Positions 28,430 to 40,086 of a DNA stretch of 64,000 nucleotides are shown piece by piece (the first letter of the stretch is position 1; every line of letters starts with the position of its first letter). Source of the stretch: Methylovirgula ligni (lineage in GTDB: Bacteria; Pseudomonadota; Alphaproteobacteria; Rhizobiales; Beijerinckiaceae); NCBI RefSeq assembly GCF_004135935.1, contig NZ_CP025086.1, forward strand, positions 1,426,001 to 1,490,000, given 5' to 3'. The notes under the pieces are model-generated. The model saw only the letters and a list, made by a program, of their open reading frames with translations, was not told the DNA's origin and did not search any database. Made by a program: the position numbers and the translations under genes.

Positions 28430-29599
28430 ATGGATGCAGATATCGGCGATCTAATCCGCAAGGACGCCGTGCATCGGTCGGTCTATACCGACCCGAAGGT
28501 ATTCGATCTGGAGATGGAGCGCATCTTCGATCGAACTTGGGTGTATCTCGGCCATTTTAGCGAAATCAAAGAGCGAAACGACTATAAGACGACGCTCATC
28601 GGACGTCATCCGGTGATCGTCTCGCATTTGAGCGACGGCACGATCGCCGCAGTGATTAACCGTTGCCGGCATCGCGGCGCGACGGTGTGTCAGCATGAAT
28701 TTGGCAATAGTCGCGTTTTCCGCTGCGCTTATCACGCCTGGACCTACGGCAACACGGGCAAACTCATAGGTGTGCCTCACCCAGAAGGTTACGGCAAAGA
28801 TTTTTCGCGCGAGCAACTCGGTCTTGTCAAATTGCCACGCATCGCGATGCATCGAGGGTTTATCTTTGGCAGCATGGCAGCGGATGGGCCGAGTCTGGAC
28901 GAGCATCTTGGGGGTACCAAGCAGCTCATCGACGAATTCTGCGACATTTCACCCACCGGCGAGATCGAGGTGTTTCGAGGCCTTCAGAAATGTGCCTATT
29001 CCGGCAACTGGAAATTCCAGCTCGAGAACGGTGTGGACCCTTATCACGTCGAGTTCCTACATCGCAGCACCTTCAGTCGCGAGACGCTGAAGATCTACAA
29101 CGAATCGAGCGGCACCGTTATCGATATGGATGGACACGGCGTTACAGACCATCGAGACATCGGACCGATGCGGCGCGACGGCTTACCAAACGGGGGGTTC
29201 AACGTTGTGATCTTCCCGAATCTCATCCTGCTGCGGACGCAAATACGCATCGTACGCCCGATCTCCGTCAACCGGACGGAAATCTATACCAATGTTGTAA
29301 AGCTACCGGGCCTCGATGAGGCCACCAACAAATTCCGTTTGCGCACACAGGAGTTCGAGTTTGGTCCGTCAGGCGTGGTGTTCGCCGACGACCTCGAAAT
29401 CTTTGAGCGTGCTCAGGCGGGCTTGCAAAGCTCGGCTGTCGAATGGTTACTTGTTTCGCGCGGTATTGATCGCGATCGGATGCAAAATGGCTATCTTTCT
29501 GGGGAAATGATGGACGAAACACAGCACCGCGCGATGTATCGCCGTTGGAAAGAGATGATGACCTCGCGCGCGCCGGCGCCGAGTGAAAGTGCCGCATGA
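28430..29599 (+). CDS. Rieske non-heme iron ring-hydroxylating oxygenase, alpha subunit
   Basis: This 389-residue subunit has an intact Rieske [2Fe-2S] site (Cys79, His81, Cys99, His102 in CRHRGATVC and FRCAYHAWTYG). It has an intact mononuclear iron site Asn200-x2-Asp203-x2-His206-x4-His211 (ENGVDPYHVEFLH). These are the hallmarks of benzoate/anthranilate-type dioxygenase alpha subunits. It activates O2 to hydroxylate an aromatic or heteroaromatic ring. It overlaps the beta subunit gene by 4 nt. No ferredoxin or reductase gene is found in the window, so electrons must come from elsewhere. The substrate is unknown. Confidence 0.92.
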   Translation: MDADIGDLIRKDAVHRSVYTDPKVFDLEMERIFDRTWVYLGHFSEIKERNDYKTTLIGRHPVIVSHLSDGTIAAVINRCRHRGATVCQHEFGNSRVFRCAYHAWTYGNTGKLIGVPHPEGYGKDFSREQLGLVKLPRIAMHRGFIFGSMAADGPSLDEHLGGTKQLIDEFCDISPTGEIEVFRGLQKCAYSGNWKFQLENGVDPYHVEFLHRSTFSRETLKIYNESSGTVIDMDGHGVTDHRDIGPMRRDGLPNGGFNVVIFPNLILLRTQIRIVRPISVNRTEIYTNVVKLPGLDEATNKFRLRTQEFEFGPSGVVFADDLEIFERAQAGLQSSAVEWLLVSRGIDRDRMQNGYLSGEMMDETQHRAMYRRWKEMMTSRAPAPSESAA

Positions 29600-30069
29600 T
29601 GAAGCAATACAACGCGATCGAGAGGCTTCTATATCGTGAGGCGCGCTTTCTTGACGAGCATCGGTTTGATGAATGGCTTGATCTGTACTCGTCCGATGCG
29701 ATCTACTGGATTCCGGCGGGCCATTTCGACATAGATCCGGAAGAGCATGTCTCCATCATTTACGATACGCGTGTGGAGATGGAGCGCCGTGTTGCGCGCC
29801 TGAAGTCCGGATTCGCCTATGCCGAAGATCCGCCCGCTCGAACCCATCGCGCTGTCTCGAACGTTGAGATTGATGTCACCGAGCCCGACATTGTTGTTTC
29901 AAGCGTCCTAATGCTGTTTGCGTTGTCGAAACACAAATACACAATCCATTCGGCGCGCTGCGAATTCGTCTTGAAGCCTGGCGATAACGACGATTTCAAG
30001 ATCGCGCGCAAAAAGATCGGATTGTTGCGAAACGACGAAGCCCTCGACCACATACCGTATCTTCTGTAG
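29596..30069 (+). CDS. Ring-hydroxylating oxygenase, beta subunit
   Basis: This 157-residue SnoaL/NTF2-fold subunit has the conserved IERLLYREARFLDEHRFDEWLDLYSSDAIYWIPAG opening and the RLKSGFAYAEDPPARTHRAVSNV segment. The beta subunit packs against alpha in the alpha3beta3 hexamer and has a structural role. The start overlaps the alpha stop (ATGA at 29596). The length is normal for the family. With alpha it forms a complete terminal oxygenase. Confidence 0.9.
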   Translation: MMKQYNAIERLLYREARFLDEHRFDEWLDLYSSDAIYWIPAGHFDIDPEEHVSIIYDTRVEMERRVARLKSGFAYAEDPPARTHRAVSNVEIDVTEPDIVVSSVLMLFALSKHKYTIHSARCEFVLKPGDNDDFKIARKKIGLLRNDEALDHIPYLL

Positions 30070-30369: not shown

Positions 30370-31200
30370 ATGCCCTCATTCGTCTGCACCACTTGCGGCA
30401 CGCAATATCCTCCGAGCGACAAACCGCCGACAGAATGCATCATCTGCTCCGATGAACGCCAATACGTCACGGCGGCGGGCCAAGGCTGGACGACGCTTGA
30501 AAACTTGCGTCATCGTCACATGAACGCTATTCGCGAGCTTGAGCCAAATTTGATTTCAATCACGACATTTCCCGCTTTCGGAATCAACCAGCGGACGCAT
30601 CTTTTGCGGACCCCGCACGGCAACATCCTGTGGGATTGTATTGCCCTCGTCGATAACGCAACGGTGGAAATGATTAAGGCGATGGGCGGCATCAAGGCCA
30701 TCGCCATTTCGCATCCACATTACTACACGACCATGCTCGAGTGGAGCAATGCGTTTGACGGCGTGCCCATTTATTTGCACGAGGCCGACCGTAACTGGGT
30801 TCAACGTGACGGCCCAGCGATCGTATTCTGGAGTGGGTCCAGCAAGGAATTGCTGCCGGGTGTGACGCTTATCTGCGCTGGTGGCCACTATCCCGGAGGT
30901 TCGGTACTGCATTGGGCGGATGGCGCCGAAGGCAGGGGGACGCTTTTATCAGGCGATATCGTCCATGTTGTCCATGATCGCAAATCCGTGAGCTTCATGT
31001 GGAGCTTCCCGAACTTCATCCCCCTGTCCGCGCCGCGTGTCGAAGGAGTAGTCAATGCCATCAAACCTTATAAGTTCGACCGAATTCATGGTGCCTTCAC
31101 GGACCGCACCATCTGGTCAGGTGCGCAGGACGCGGTCAAACGCTCCACGGAACGTTATCTCAACATCATTCTCGGCGATGGCAGTTATGAATTGCAGTGA
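30370..31200 (+). CDS. MBL-fold protein with an N-terminal zinc-ribbon and HPHYY motif
   Basis: This 276-residue protein starts with a CxxC-x13-CxxC element (Cys6, Cys9, Cys23, Cys26), a rubredoxin-like zinc ribbon. A metallo-beta-lactamase fold follows. In place of the usual HxHxDH it has ISHPHYYTTMLEWS, so the Asp and third His of metal site 2 are replaced by tyrosines, although the later CAGGHYPGGS and SGDIVHV segments are kept. Such HPHYY proteins form a recognisable subfamily. A hydrolase or oxidoreductase role on a pathway intermediate is possible; no function is established. It is co-directional with the oxygenase operon. Confidence 0.75.
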   Translation: MPSFVCTTCGTQYPPSDKPPTECIICSDERQYVTAAGQGWTTLENLRHRHMNAIRELEPNLISITTFPAFGINQRTHLLRTPHGNILWDCIALVDNATVEMIKAMGGIKAIAISHPHYYTTMLEWSNAFDGVPIYLHEADRNWVQRDGPAIVFWSGSSKELLPGVTLICAGGHYPGGSVLHWADGAEGRGTLLSGDIVHVVHDRKSVSFMWSFPNFIPLSAPRVEGVVNAIKPYKFDRIHGAFTDRTIWSGAQDAVKRSTERYLNIILGDGSYELQ

Positions 31201-33429: not shown

Positions 33430-34812
33430 ATGACGCTTGACGTCTTGCGCGCTTTAGCCGGCGAAATCGCCATCGCTGTTTCAAGCGGGCAAGTTTCCGC
33501 GCGTGCCGTCACCGACGCGGCGCTTGCACGGATCGCCACACGCAATCCGCAGCTCAACGCCTTCACCGATGTCACGCGCGACCGCGCCTTGGCCAAAGCC
33601 GCCGTGCTCGATGCCGGCGCGGCGAAAGGCCCGCTCGCAGGCGTGCCCTTCGCGGTGAAAAATCTCTATGACATCGCCGGTCTCGTCACCCGCGCAGGCT
33701 CCAAGATCAATCGCGACAATGCCGCCGCCGGCGACGATGCCCTGGTTGTCGAAAAGCTCGATGCCGCGGGCGCTGTCCTTCTCGGTGCGCTCGACATGGA
33801 CGAATACGCTTACGGCTTCACCGGTGAGAATGTGCATGACGGCAATTCGCTGAACCCGCACGATCCAAGCCGCATGACCGGCGGTTCGTCCGGCGGCTCG
33901 GCTGCCGCGGTGGCGTCGGGCATGGTCGCTTTCGCGCTCGGCTCGGATACCAATGGCTCGATTCGCGTGCCGGCCTCGCTCTGCGGTCTCTTCGGCCTGA
34001 AGCCGACTTATGGGCGGCTTTCCCGAAGCGGCGTTTTCCCTTTCGTTGCGAGTTTCGATCATGTCGGCGTGTTGGCGCGCGCCGCCGCCGATCTCGCCTC
34101 GGTCTACGATGCGATGCAGGGCAGGGACGTGGCCGATCCGGCGCAAGCGCCGCGCGCCGCCGAGCGGGTCTTACCTTTGCTTGGCCAAGGCGCCTCCGGC
34201 CTGCGCATCGCCGTGGCCGGCGATTATTTTCGCCGCGGCGGGCGGCCTGAATGTTTCGCCGCCGTCGATGCGGTCGCCGCGGCGCTCGGCGCAACGCGCG
34301 AGGTTGTATTGCCCGCGGCGGCCGCGGCGCGGGCGGCGGCTTTCGTTATCACCGCGGCAGAAGGCGCCGCCTTCCACCTTCCACGATTGCGCGAGAGACC
34401 GCAGGATTTCGACGCGGCGGTGCGCGACCGCCTTTTTGCCGGCGCGATGATCCCGGCTGAAAGCCTGCTACGGGCGCAGAAATTGCGCGCATGGTTTCAT
34501 CGCCGTGTCGCCGCGCTGTTCGAGGAGGTCGATATCATTCTCACCCCGGCAACGCCGTGCCGGGCGCCGCTTTCGGGGCAGAAGACGATCGAGATCGAAG
34601 GCACGGAGGTTACGGTGCGCGCCAATCTCGGAATTTATACGCAGCCGATTTCCTTCATCGGTCTGCCGGCCGTGACGGTGCCGCTCTGGACTGAGGGCGA
34701 GACGTTGCCGATTGGCGTTCAGATCATCGGACCGCCGTGGCGCGAGGACCTTGTGCTGCGCGTGGCATATGAGCTGGAAAGAAAAGGCGTCGCGCGGGCG
34801 CCGGTGGCGTAA
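33430..34812 (+). CDS. AtzE-family amidase (1-carboxybiuret/oxalurate-type hydrolase)
   Basis: This 460-residue amidase-signature enzyme has the catalytic Lys in PFAVKNLYDIAG, the cis-Ser in GGSSGGSAAAVASG and the nucleophile Ser in GSDTNGSIRVPASLCGLFG. With the AtzG-like subunit in front it matches the AtzE/HpxY group, which hydrolyses carboxybiuret or related urea derivatives in s-triazine and oxalurate pathways. The DNA is visibly more GC-rich at codon third positions than the preceding MmgE gene. The AtzH-like gene lies 1 kb away on the other strand. The exact substrate is not proven. Confidence 0.82.
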   Translation: MTLDVLRALAGEIAIAVSSGQVSARAVTDAALARIATRNPQLNAFTDVTRDRALAKAAVLDAGAAKGPLAGVPFAVKNLYDIAGLVTRAGSKINRDNAAAGDDALVVEKLDAAGAVLLGALDMDEYAYGFTGENVHDGNSLNPHDPSRMTGGSSGGSAAAVASGMVAFALGSDTNGSIRVPASLCGLFGLKPTYGRLSRSGVFPFVASFDHVGVLARAAADLASVYDAMQGRDVADPAQAPRAAERVLPLLGQGASGLRIAVAGDYFRRGGRPECFAAVDAVAAALGATREVVLPAAAAARAAAFVITAAEGAAFHLPRLRERPQDFDAAVRDRLFAGAMIPAESLLRAQKLRAWFHRRVAALFEEVDIILTPATPCRAPLSGQKTIEIEGTEVTVRANLGIYTQPISFIGLPAVTVPLWTEGETLPIGVQIIGPPWREDLVLRVAYELERKGVARAPVA

Positions 34813-35824: not shown

Positions 35825-36205
35825 CTATCGCTTGTCGACGAGGCTGACGTGTGCGGAAACGACACGCCAGCCGTCGCCGAATTTAATCCAGGTCTGTGAC
35901 TGGCGACCGATCTTGTTGACATTCTCGCGACTGAAAATGGCGTTGGCCACGGCGATATTGTCGCCATAGGTTGTGATCTCGTATCGCTCGAGATTACGCT
36001 GAAGGCCTGCGGTGTTCCTGCTGCGCCGAAACGCCTTGATCTCTTCATGCGACCATAATTCTTCGGTCATGCCGAAACGCACCGTATATGTGCTTTCGAG
36101 GAATGCGGCGTCGAGAATCTCGATGTCATTGTCATTGATGGCTTGCTCGTACTCCAAAAACTTCTTTGTCACTTCGGCCACAACGTCGGGACGATTGATT
36201 TCCAT
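35825..36205 (-). CDS. AtzH/HpxZ-like protein (NTF2-fold, DUF3225)
   Basis: This 126-residue NTF2-like protein has EINRPDVVAEVTKKFLEYEQ, then FGMTEELWSHEEIKAFR and the C-terminal TWIKFGDGWRVVSAHVS. It matches AtzH/HpxZ, which occurs beside AtzG-AtzE amidases. AtzH was shown to be an amide-bond hydrolase for dicarboxylated biuret-type products; HpxZ belongs to oxalurate catabolism. It supports the AtzE assignment of the amidase 1 kb away. It is first in a two-gene unit with the alpha/beta hydrolase. Confidence 0.75.
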   Translation of the reverse strand: MEINRPDVVAEVTKKFLEYEQAINDNDIEILDAAFLESTYTVRFGMTEELWSHEEIKAFRRSRNTAGLQRNLERYEITTYGDNIAVANAIFSRENVNKIGRQSQTWIKFGDGWRVVSAHVSLVDKR

Positions 36206-37726: not shown

Positions 37727-38563
37727 ATGAATGAGCCGATCGCAAGGCTGAGCGCGCGCAACCCCTGGTCCTGGTACCCGGTGGTTGCGTCGAAAGACCT
37801 CAAGGCTGGCAAGGTCATACCGGTGGTGCTTAATGGTGGTCACTTTGTTGTTTGGCGCTCGGAGAGCGGCCGGGCTAATGCTTGGAGCGACCGGTGTCCC
37901 CATCGGGGCATGCGTCTTTCCTTCGGCGCCACCCAGAAAGAAGAGTTGATCTGCCCCTATCATGGTTGGACGTTCGGAACCGACGGGCACTGCATCCGAA
38001 TCCCAGCACACCCCGGTTTCGAACCGTCACGTGCTGCTCGGACGCGGCTTTATCCATCGATCGAAACGAGCGGTTATGTATGGGTCTGCATAGGAGAGCC
38101 TTCGTCGGAGACCCCCGAGGCAGGAAGTTCTTGGCCGACGGTTCGAAGCATGCATCTGCCGGTTGACGTTCCGGAAGCGACAGCCGCTCTTTTCATGGTT
38201 CCCCTCGACGCAAATGACGCCGACTTTGCTCCGATCGATATAAGTGCAATCAACTGGTCGGGCGCCGGCGCGATGTCGGTGATACTGCCTAATGAACGAA
38301 TCTTCAGTGCTTCCTTAACAAAGGCAGGCGCGTTGAGCGCATTCTGCCAGGGACCACGCGGGACGGCGCGTTATGAAATCCGGTTTCAGCCGGCCGCGCA
38401 TGACGCGTGCGTGGTGCATTTAGCCTCCGCGAATGATCCGGTGGCCATGAACCGGGCACTCGTAGCGTTTCGTCACACGCTTCTTCACCAAATCGACGCC
38501 AAAAAGCTGTCCGCTGTTCGTGCCGCCTTGGCCGAACGTCTGCCCGATCAAGTTAGCAATTAA
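37727..38563 (+). CDS. Rieske protein with a degenerate oxygenase domain (no mononuclear Fe site)
   Basis: This 278-residue protein has an intact Rieske domain: Cys57-x-His59 in RCPHRGMRLSF and Cys76-x2-His79 in CPYHGWTFG. After it, about 170 residues follow where a Rieske oxygenase alpha subunit normally carries its catalytic domain. No Asn-x2-Asp-x2-His-x4-His motif is seen; the matching region reads VPLDANDADFAPIDISAINW and has no His. The start is set by AAGGAG 6 nt upstream. It is followed 15 nt later by a partner that lacks the Rieske site but keeps the iron site. I infer it is the electron-transfer half of a split oxygenase. Confidence 0.8.
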   Translation: MNEPIARLSARNPWSWYPVVASKDLKAGKVIPVVLNGGHFVVWRSESGRANAWSDRCPHRGMRLSFGATQKEELICPYHGWTFGTDGHCIRIPAHPGFEPSRAARTRLYPSIETSGYVWVCIGEPSSETPEAGSSWPTVRSMHLPVDVPEATAALFMVPLDANDADFAPIDISAINWSGAGAMSVILPNERIFSASLTKAGALSAFCQGPRGTARYEIRFQPAAHDACVVHLASANDPVAMNRALVAFRHTLLHQIDAKKLSAVRAALAERLPDQVSN

Positions 38564-38578
38564 ATACCGGGAGCCTTT

Positions 38579-39451
38579 ATGACTGTCACATCCGACCCCG
38601 TAGCCTTGAATGACTGGTATGTTGTCACATTTGAAGACGAGATTGCGCCCGGTGCAACTCAGACGACGCGCTTACTGGGCCAGGATATTCTCGTAGTCCG
38701 AGACTTAGAGAGAGAGTTCCATTGCTTTCTCGTCGAGGAAGACGGTTCGAAAACGCCGGTTCCGCAACTGAAGCGGCGCTACGGTTTCGTCTGGATCACG
38801 CTTGGTGCCCCAACTCACGACATCATCGACATTCCGCAATTCAAAGAGGAGGGCAGAACGTTTTTCCACCGCGGCCGTATCGGCGTCCCGAGTTCAGGGC
38901 AGCGAGTGATCGAGAATTTCTTCGACCTCGCTCACTTCTCGTTCGTGCATACCGGCACACTCGGCGGCTACGAATCCGCGGAAGTACAGCGTTACTCCGT
39001 TCAACTACGTGAAGAGGGTCGCGAACTCTGGGCTGTCGGATGTAGTTTCTACCAACCGAAGCCGTCCGTAGCCGCGAGCACCAGCGCTACGATTTATACG
39101 GACTACCGGATCCCCTCCCCATTTATCACGATTCTTTATAAGGATAGCCTTATAAAGCCTGGCCAAAAGGATTTGATCGGCCTGTTCGTCCAACCCCACG
39201 ACGAAGAGCATTGCACTGTTCAATCCTTCGCCTTGCTTTTCGATACAGGCAACAGCATCACGCATCTGCTGCATTTTTATCATGAGATATTCATGCAGGA
39301 CCGAGCCATACTTATTCAACAGATGCCAAAGAAGCTGCCAGTCCACGCACGGCGCGAGATTCCGACGATCTCGGATGCGAGCTCGGTCGCCTATCGTCGC
39401 TGGCTGGATCGGTCCGGCCTGGAATTTGGTCTCGATAGGACCGCAGAATGA
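38579..39451 (+). CDS. Rieske-less non-heme iron oxygenase (NdmC-like)
   Basis: This 290-residue protein has an oxygenase catalytic domain with an intact mononuclear iron motif, Asn113-x2-Asp116-x2-His119-x4-His124 (VIENFFDLAHFSFVHTG). A probable third ligand is Asp241 in MQDRAILIQQMP. The N terminus (NDWYVVTFEDEIAPG, LGQDILVVRD, RRYGFVWITLG) aligns with the edges of a Rieske domain, but both cluster-binding loops are deleted, with no Cys-x-His. The best-known protein of this kind is NdmC of methylxanthine N-demethylation, which relies on another protein's Rieske centre. The substrate here is unknown. It overlaps the GST-like gene. Confidence 0.8.
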   Translation: MTVTSDPVALNDWYVVTFEDEIAPGATQTTRLLGQDILVVRDLEREFHCFLVEEDGSKTPVPQLKRRYGFVWITLGAPTHDIIDIPQFKEEGRTFFHRGRIGVPSSGQRVIENFFDLAHFSFVHTGTLGGYESAEVQRYSVQLREEGRELWAVGCSFYQPKPSVAASTSATIYTDYRIPSPFITILYKDSLIKPGQKDLIGLFVQPHDEEHCTVQSFALLFDTGNSITHLLHFYHEIFMQDRAILIQQMPKKLPVHARREIPTISDASSVAYRRWLDRSGLEFGLDRTAE

Positions 39452-40086
39452 TGATTTTGCACGATTACATCCTGTCGTCTGATTGCTACAAGGTGCGGCT
39501 GTTGATCGCTATGCTCGGCCTCAAAGTCGAGCTTCGGAAGATCAATGTGTTTCCCGGTCACGAATTGGACTCGCTCGCATTTCGGCTGCTAAACCCGCTC
39601 GGTCGTATTCCGGTACTCGAAGATGATGAGCTTGTCTTGCGGGAGCCAGGAGCCATCCTGACCTACCTATCGTTGCGTCATGGGCCGCCCAACACATGGC
39701 TACCTGACGACCCGGCTCGGCATGCCGAAGTGGTGCTGTGGCTCGAGTTTGCGTCTCGCGAGCTGGAGCCGGTGTCGCGGCTGCGATTTGACGCTATCAC
39801 TGGCGTGGGACCGGCCCCGGCTGGCGATGTCGAGAAAACTCATGCCGCGCTAGCTGTACTGGAGGATCACTTAGCAGCTCTCGAAATTACGGGCGCAGAC
39901 TGGCTTGTAGGGAATGCGCCCACGCTTGCGGATCTCGCGGTCTTTGCGCCTGTAGCGCTCGCCCCCGACGCCGAAATCCCACTTGATACATATCCCGCTA
40001 TTTGGCGCTGGATAGGTCGGGTGAAAACGCTCCCTGGCTTCATTGTAATGCCCGGGGTTATGCCGAGCCTCGTAGGCGTTGTCTAA
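39448..40086 (+). CDS. GST-like protein (NdmE-like scaffold candidate)
   Basis: This 212-residue protein has a thioredoxin-like N-terminal domain (ILHDYILSSDCYKVRLLIAML, NPLGRIPVLEDDELVLREPGAILTYLS) and an alpha-helical C-terminal domain (WLVGNAPTLADLAVFAPVALAPDA). The ATG overlaps the Rieske-less oxygenase stop (ATGA at 39448), so they are translationally coupled. In the NdmCDE complex, a GST-like protein, NdmE, holds the Rieske-less oxygenase with its Rieske partner. I infer a similar role. A normal glutathione transferase role in detoxification remains possible. Confidence 0.8.
   Translation: MMILHDYILSSDCYKVRLLIAMLGLKVELRKINVFPGHELDSLAFRLLNPLGRIPVLEDDELVLREPGAILTYLSLRHGPPNTWLPDDPARHAEVVLWLEFASRELEPVSRLRFDAITGVGPAPAGDVEKTHAALAVLEDHLAALEITGADWLVGNAPTLADLAVFAPVALAPDAEIPLDTYPAIWRWIGRVKTLPGFIVMPGVMPSLVGVV

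Follow-up and report, generated by a model that had tools for sequence, protein, structure and literature searches.

The window analyzed here is a stretch of 64,000 nucleotides from contig NZ_CP025086.1 of Methylovirgula ligni (positions 1,426,001 to 1,490,000). At 37727-40086 it contains three genes encoding two proteins related to the alpha subunits of Rieske oxygenases (P1 and P2) and a glutathione S-transferase (GST)-like protein (P3). The three proteins are homologous to an ndm-type trio, named after NdmC-NdmD-NdmE, the 7-methylxanthine N7-demethylase of Pseudomonas putida CBB5. The genes, given as open reading frames (ORFs), and their metal-ligand motifs are as follows.

37727..38563, + strand: P1, alpha-like Rieske subunit that stands alone, lacking an iron site and with its catalytic domain truncated (ORF of 278 amino acids)
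37895..37903, + strand: first Rieske ligand pair of P1, C57-P-H59 (from the translation; conserved in 89/89)
37952..37963, + strand: second Rieske ligand pair of P1, C76-x2-H79 (from the translation; conserved in 89/89)
38579..39451, + strand: P2, oxygenase subunit resembling NdmC, in which a mononuclear iron site is combined with an empty Rieske fold (ORF of 290 amino acids)
38915..38950, + strand: iron-site motif of P2, N113-x2-D116-x2-H119-x4-H124 (from the translation; conserved in 146/146)
39299..39301, + strand: third iron-site carboxylate of P2, D241 (conserved in 146/146)
39448..40086, + strand: P3, GST-like (NdmE-like) protein with GST_N and GST_C domains (ORF of 212 amino acids)

Pfam searches identified a Rieske domain in P1 (E 5.3e-24) and found neither a catalytic domain nor a reductase domain in that protein. 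P2 matched VanA_C (E 1.4e-17), with a sub-threshold Rieske match restricted to residues 12-50, and P3 matched both the N- and C-terminal GST domains. Unlike the usual alpha subunit, neither P1 nor P2 combines a Rieske centre and a mononuclear iron site on one chain. An initial annotation, made from the sequence alone, had assigned the four Rieske ligands to P1 and the intact iron site to P2, had noted that each protein lacks the motif of the other, and had described the GST-like gene as coupled by ATGA; the residues lie where it placed them, and the P2 and P3 reading frames do overlap at ATGA.

Alignment of relatives revealed that these complementary losses are conserved. N113, D116, H119, H124 and D241, the last of which had been proposed as a probable ligand, were invariant in all 146 aligned P2-type proteins, none of which contained the CxH...CxxH pattern (0/146). 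C57, H59, C76 and H79 were likewise invariant in the 89 aligned P1-type proteins, a set that had been prefiltered for absence of the iron motif. In an unfiltered recount, the iron motif was absent from 140 of the 144 ORFs scoring >75 bits with P1, a number in which fused forms and copies of the window's gene are counted and some genomes appear more than once; the other four, which carry the motif, are single-chain oxygenases (loci L188-L191). The text pattern used for the iron motif is a guide and not a proof for any single protein, as it misses 3 of 17 full-length oxygenases below 75 bits (L002, L004 and L044) and, in a looser version, matches 2 of the 89 P1-type proteins (L104 and L052). Among proteins in which the P1 part is fused to a VanB-type reductase (NdmD type), one of 24 rows lacks three of the four Rieske ligands in the alignment, probably because a long open frame was cut before the Rieske domain. 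The same losses occur in relatives from many genera, and the missing loops are therefore not the sequencing errors or frameshifts that the initial annotation had asked to be considered. The split of the two metal sites between two proteins is a real feature of this family.

P1- and P2-type genes occur in the same genomes. P2-type genes were found in 54 of 347 genomes of the order, including the window's own, and P1-type genes, stand-alone or fused, in the same 54. In a phylum-wide sample of 398 genomes, both types were again found in identical genomes (15 and 15), nine of which were already in the order sample and six of which were new. The score cut-offs (≥170 bits for P2-type and ≥188 bits for P1-type genes in the order sample; 327 and 178 bits in the phylum sample) were chosen after a gap in the scores was seen, the tallies before their application being 60 and 122 of 347 and 23 and 22 of 398. 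The genes below the gap were those of single-chain oxygenases (in 4 and 8 genomes) and of other oxygenases. P1 scoring in the order sample and both scorings in the phylum sample considered at most 6 or 7 candidates per genome, so that a gene may have been missed. A contig search for relatives yielded at least 535, of which the best 80 loci were analyzed. No P1-type or NdmD-type gene was present within the fetched stretch at 24 of these 80 loci (L054 is not among them, its P1 sitting in a long open frame), and all 21 genomes holding the 24 loci have a P1-type gene elsewhere. Close homologues occurring alone with the missing motif present, a finding that would have spoken against the split, were thus not encountered. 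The arrangement is common rather than unique; it is widespread and apparently little noticed.

According to the scores, 11 of the 54 genomes have two P2 genes with one P1 or NdmD gene. Two adjacent P2-type genes are accompanied by one NdmD-type and one GST-like gene in L046:8989-13249 (Sinorhizobium meliloti pSymA), and the same arrangement occurs in L159, L178, L179, L182, L184 and L185, as if one electron module served two oxygenases.

The 53 other split loci of the order comprise 35 with a stand-alone P1 and 18 with P1 fused to a VanB-type reductase, as in NdmD. A separate VanB-type reductase gene was present in the stretch at 3 of the 35 stand-alone loci (L135, L136 and L186), or 3 of 53. 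Wherever P2 does not lie between them, the listed gene orders place P1 next to the GST-like gene; the two locus sets behind these neighbour counts overlap and are not independent. On a plasmid of Paraburkholderia caffeinilytica (L043), P2-, NdmD- and GST-type genes adjoin oxygenases whose PDB matches to NdmA and NdmB have E below 1e-190, and the cluster was therefore identified as ndm. Residues 8-252 of P1 align with residues 4-233 of the NdmD-type protein of this cluster. P1 thus corresponds to more than a Rieske domain and is, judged by this alignment, the front part of NdmD without its reductase, which sharpens the comparison with NdmC, NdmD and NdmE that the initial annotation had rightly drawn.

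Other gene orders were also observed. In a Herminiimonas metagenome-assembled genome (MAG) (L091:2059-5378), a VanB-type reductase gene lies directly upstream of a stand-alone P1, possibly representing a stage before the NdmD fusion, though the gene order is reversed relative to NdmD. On a Rhizobium tumorigenes plasmid (L040:9001-11233), a P2-type gene is directly followed by a gene annotated as guanine deaminase, and the P1 and GST-like genes lie ~5.5 kb off on the other strand. A second, diverged cassette is located upstream of a complete trio at L041:4996-7929, L093:2903-5929 and L111:2994-5927, in the order P2-like, Rieske-like, GST-like and VanB-type reductase; its Rieske-like protein fails the full CxH...CxxH pattern, the second cysteine being apparently missing.

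The GST-like gene tracks the split. At 12 loci (L188-L191 and L219-L226; families f39, f86 and f87), a single chain carries both motifs, and among single-chain oxygenases these unsplit chains score closest to P1 and P2. A GST-like gene was found at 58 of 59 split loci (52/53 in the order, the exception being L181, and 6/6 in a further set) versus 0/12 within the fetched stretches of the unsplit loci (Fisher's test, p 1.0e-12, calculated without the window's own locus); the loci are related by descent, so this p value overstates their independence, and L189, with a stretch of 5.8 kb only, tests the absence less. BMP, ABC and permease genes adjoin 10 of the 12 unsplit loci, L189 having only a BMP fragment at the contig end and L226 no such transporter genes, and genes of the same kind accompany many split cassettes.

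Among solved structures, SxtT and GxtA (SxtDIOX in the PDB table) are closest to P1 as well as to P2, both in sequence (102.1 and 89.1 bits) and in fold; they differ from the trio in having both metal sites on one chain and an alpha3 assembly. P1 matches the Rieske half of SxtT/GxtA, and P2 matches SxtT residues 2-44 and 106-333, nearly all but the cluster-binding part. NdmA and NdmB, the next closest solved structures to P2, form a hetero-oligomer of two alpha subunits, each of which, unlike P1 and P2, holds both metal sites. In predicted structures, P1 and P2 each model as a whole alpha subunit with a two-domain fold. For the joined P1-P2 model considered below, mixed alignment A3 was rejected, since P1-only rows ran into the P2 half, and mixed alignments A5, which appeared misplaced from the summary, and A7, with plasmid rows, were set aside.

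In a careful tree of the catalytic domain (55 rows), the 36 split P2 rows fall on one side of a branch supported at 100/99, with the unsplit chains nearest; they were sampled as alternate rows of the dereplicated set plus the window's row and the three closest to it, without the diverged L041:4996 protein. The corresponding support in a quick tree of 85 rows was 84. The Rieske centre was thus probably lost once in the P2 lineage. A careful Rieske tree of 59 rows, among them 26 P1 and 14 NdmD rows, was rooted with NdmA/B-type oxygenases. It united P1 and NdmD in a single clade (95/78, not starred), within which the NdmD rows group with two stand-alone P1 proteins, that of Herminiimonas (L091) and that of G704 (L229) (97/81, starred). 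L228, a stand-alone protein on a long branch, falls among the NdmD rows, and a single NdmD clade was not rejected (p 0.29). Unlike the careful tree, a quick Rieske tree with fewer unsplit rows joined the f39 unsplit chains to other oxygenases (85, not starred), and its deep forks were not resolved. The careful Rieske tree is most simply read as showing an older free Rieske subunit and a derived NdmD fusion. The window's own P2 and P1 group with those of G226 (L135, taken as Acuticoccus mangrovi) and of a Xanthobacteraceae MAG (100/99 and 100/98).

In the published description of ordinary Rieske oxygenases, C3 assemblies are built from alpha subunits that each carry both a Rieske and a catalytic domain, and electrons cross ~12 Å between the Rieske centre of a subunit and the iron of its neighbour; NdmA/NdmB is an alpha3alpha'3 hetero-oligomer of two alpha subunits (PMC12445004). 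NdmCDE is presented in passages of two sources as a complex with the Rieske centre outside the oxygenase and a required GST-like protein (PMC4408171; PMC13237722). Passages of the 2015 review call it the first case of a Rieske domain split from the oxygenase and fused to a reductase and mention 18 further organisms with homologous clusters (PMC4408171). The main text of a 2025 family review contains neither NdmC nor words beginning with "split," and our literature searches found no paper on a stand-alone Rieske partner, a form that the primary NdmCDE paper may mention among homologues. The window trio resembles NdmCDE in its iron-site oxygenase without a Rieske centre (P2), its Rieske centre on a partner and its GST-like third protein; it differs in that the Rieske partner is a separate protein of 278 residues, not part of a reductase, and in that its neighbours are not those of an ndm cluster. 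Its identification as a split oxygenase of the NdmCDE kind in unfused form is well supported by these comparisons, and the mechanism set out below is likely. The proposal of the initial annotation, a split oxygenase with a stand-alone Rieske partner, is supported, with the additions that the arrangement is common in relatives, that an unsplit sister family exists and that some relatives have a reductase gene nearby.

The setting of the trio within the window includes the following genes.

28430-30069, upstream, 8 kb off: dioxygenase alpha/beta pair (ring-hydroxylating dioxygenase at 28430-29599)
33430-34812, on the strand opposite to HpxZ: AtzE-family amidohydrolase (above the curated cut-off)
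35825-36205, on the strand opposite to the AtzE-family gene: HpxZ, oxalurate catabolism (above the curated cut-off)

The best NCBIfam matches of the dioxygenase pair are benzoate and phenylpropionate dioxygenase, below cut-off, and a Rid-family protein (below cut-off) and an MmgE/PrpD protein are also encoded upstream of the trio. Directly upstream of P1, 36467-37666 encodes a predicted protein that looks like an outer-membrane protein by eye; it has no Pfam or NCBIfam match at E 0.001 and shows weak phmmer similarity to proteins of the ndm cluster L043 (54 bits) and of L223 (36 bits). A 276-residue protein encoded at 30370-31200, with four N-terminal cysteines in two CxxC pairs, is rubredoxin-like by eye and had no Pfam or NCBIfam match at E 0.001. 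The Acuticoccus trio is adjoined by a dioxygenase alpha subunit, an MmgE/PrpD protein, an amidase and a VanB-type reductase. Many relatives sit in purine-type neighbourhoods, with guanine deaminase and a BMP transporter. The window setting differs from these, so the window clade probably acts on a different, still nitrogen-rich substrate. P2 was found in none of the 15 same-family genomes among those listed, which would fit acquisition by transfer; the G+C content of the trio (54-59%, versus 58% for the window) gives no foreign mark.

We consider it highly probable that the trio forms one Rieske non-haem iron oxygenase distributed over two alpha-like subunits with a GST-like scaffold. From the complementary loss and its conservation, the co-occurrence, the modelled folds and the kinship to NdmC/NdmD/NdmE, we infer the following complex, electron path, role of P3, reductase and substrate. 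P1, an alpha-subunit fold with a reduced catalytic half that no longer binds iron, would hold the [2Fe-2S] cluster, and P2 would hold the iron on an alpha-subunit fold whose Rieske half lacks the cluster loops. A VanB-type NADH reductase from elsewhere in the genome, which encodes two strong VanB-type reductases and a weak third outside the window, would feed electrons to P1, which would dock beside P2 like the neighbouring subunit of an ordinary Rieske oxygenase and pass them to the P2 iron near D116 for O2 activation. P3 would keep the uneven P1-P2 pair together, and the substrate, probably an N-heterocycle, would be hydroxylated or oxidatively demethylated.

Several observations weigh against this proposal. 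Two kinds of subunit cannot take turns around a three-membered ring. The usual trimer therefore cannot simply re-form, and the split must bring a different assembly with it, for which the GST-like protein is the obvious candidate to compensate. As the initial annotation remarked, no reductase gene lies near the trio. One split locus of 59 (L181) has no visible GST-like gene. The joined P1-P2 chain, modelled with just 3 alignment rows in the P1 half, gave a predicted template modeling score (pTM) of 0.58 with an unfixed orientation, and thus favours no particular docking. Confidence in the P1 model is low at residues 161-210, the Foldseek superposition of this model on GxtA (TM 0.65, root mean square deviation 5.0) is looser than Z suggests, and HHalign recovered the catalytic-domain remnant of P1 over 21 columns (P 0.0006), which is weak sequence evidence.

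The unfixed orientation also fits a different role for P1, that of a free electron carrier visiting P2 briefly in the manner of a Rieske ferredoxin instead of forming a stable subunit. P1 is a separate gene, and one P1 or NdmD serves two P2 genes in the 11 genomes mentioned above. Rieske ferredoxins of three-component systems consist of the Rieske domain alone in ~100 residues (103 in 2qpz), a pattern that P1 exceeds with its 278 residues and second, modelled domain. We regard a free carrier as unlikely, if the strongest of the competing explanations. Slightly less probable still is a catalytic role for P3 in the pathway, as a glutathione transferase or isomerase instead of a scaffold. Both GST domains are present, and the best curated-model match is maleylacetoacetate isomerase, below cut-off (68.1 versus 171.05 bits). 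Position 10, which we take from related GSTs to be the catalytic serine, is indeed Ser in P3; it varies among relatives, however, being S in 65 and D in 43 of 112, and the GST-like gene follows the split and not the transporter genes that adjoin most unsplit loci. The dioxygenase pair 8 kb off raises a further alternative, namely, that P2 draws electrons from the Rieske centre of another oxygenase (e.g., that encoded at 28430-29599) and P1 does something else, but every counted genome with a split P2 has a P1-type gene, whatever else is nearby, which makes this very improbable. The idea of decaying or misread versions of a normal oxygenase gene, which the lack of one metal site in each protein might suggest, is hardly credible in view of the invariant ligands, the losses shared by many genera, the open frames, the gene overlap and the position of the split P2 rows of the careful tree on one side of a 100/99 branch.

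Under the preferred reading of a two-subunit oxygenase with a GST-like scaffold, a broader history can be tentatively suggested, although we consider it doubtful as a whole: a large class would have abandoned the C3 homotrimer through one duplication and complementary loss, a GST-like protein would have been recruited once and simultaneously to replace the symmetry, the free Rieske-GST pair would have become a shared electron module for several oxygenases, and NdmD would be a late fusion. In such a history, the GST-like protein would perhaps take the place of the third subunit in a 1:1:1 pseudo-trimer.

The occurrence of relatives in many bacteria suggests that this is a stable enzyme design, of which only the fused cousin from caffeine-eating bacteria has been studied. 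Since the metal sites are on different proteins throughout a broad family, each centre can be handled alone: it can be separately purified, reduced, mutated or swapped, which opens electron transfer between subunits to direct tests. The link of the GST-like gene with the split offers a function to test for the puzzling subunit NdmE.
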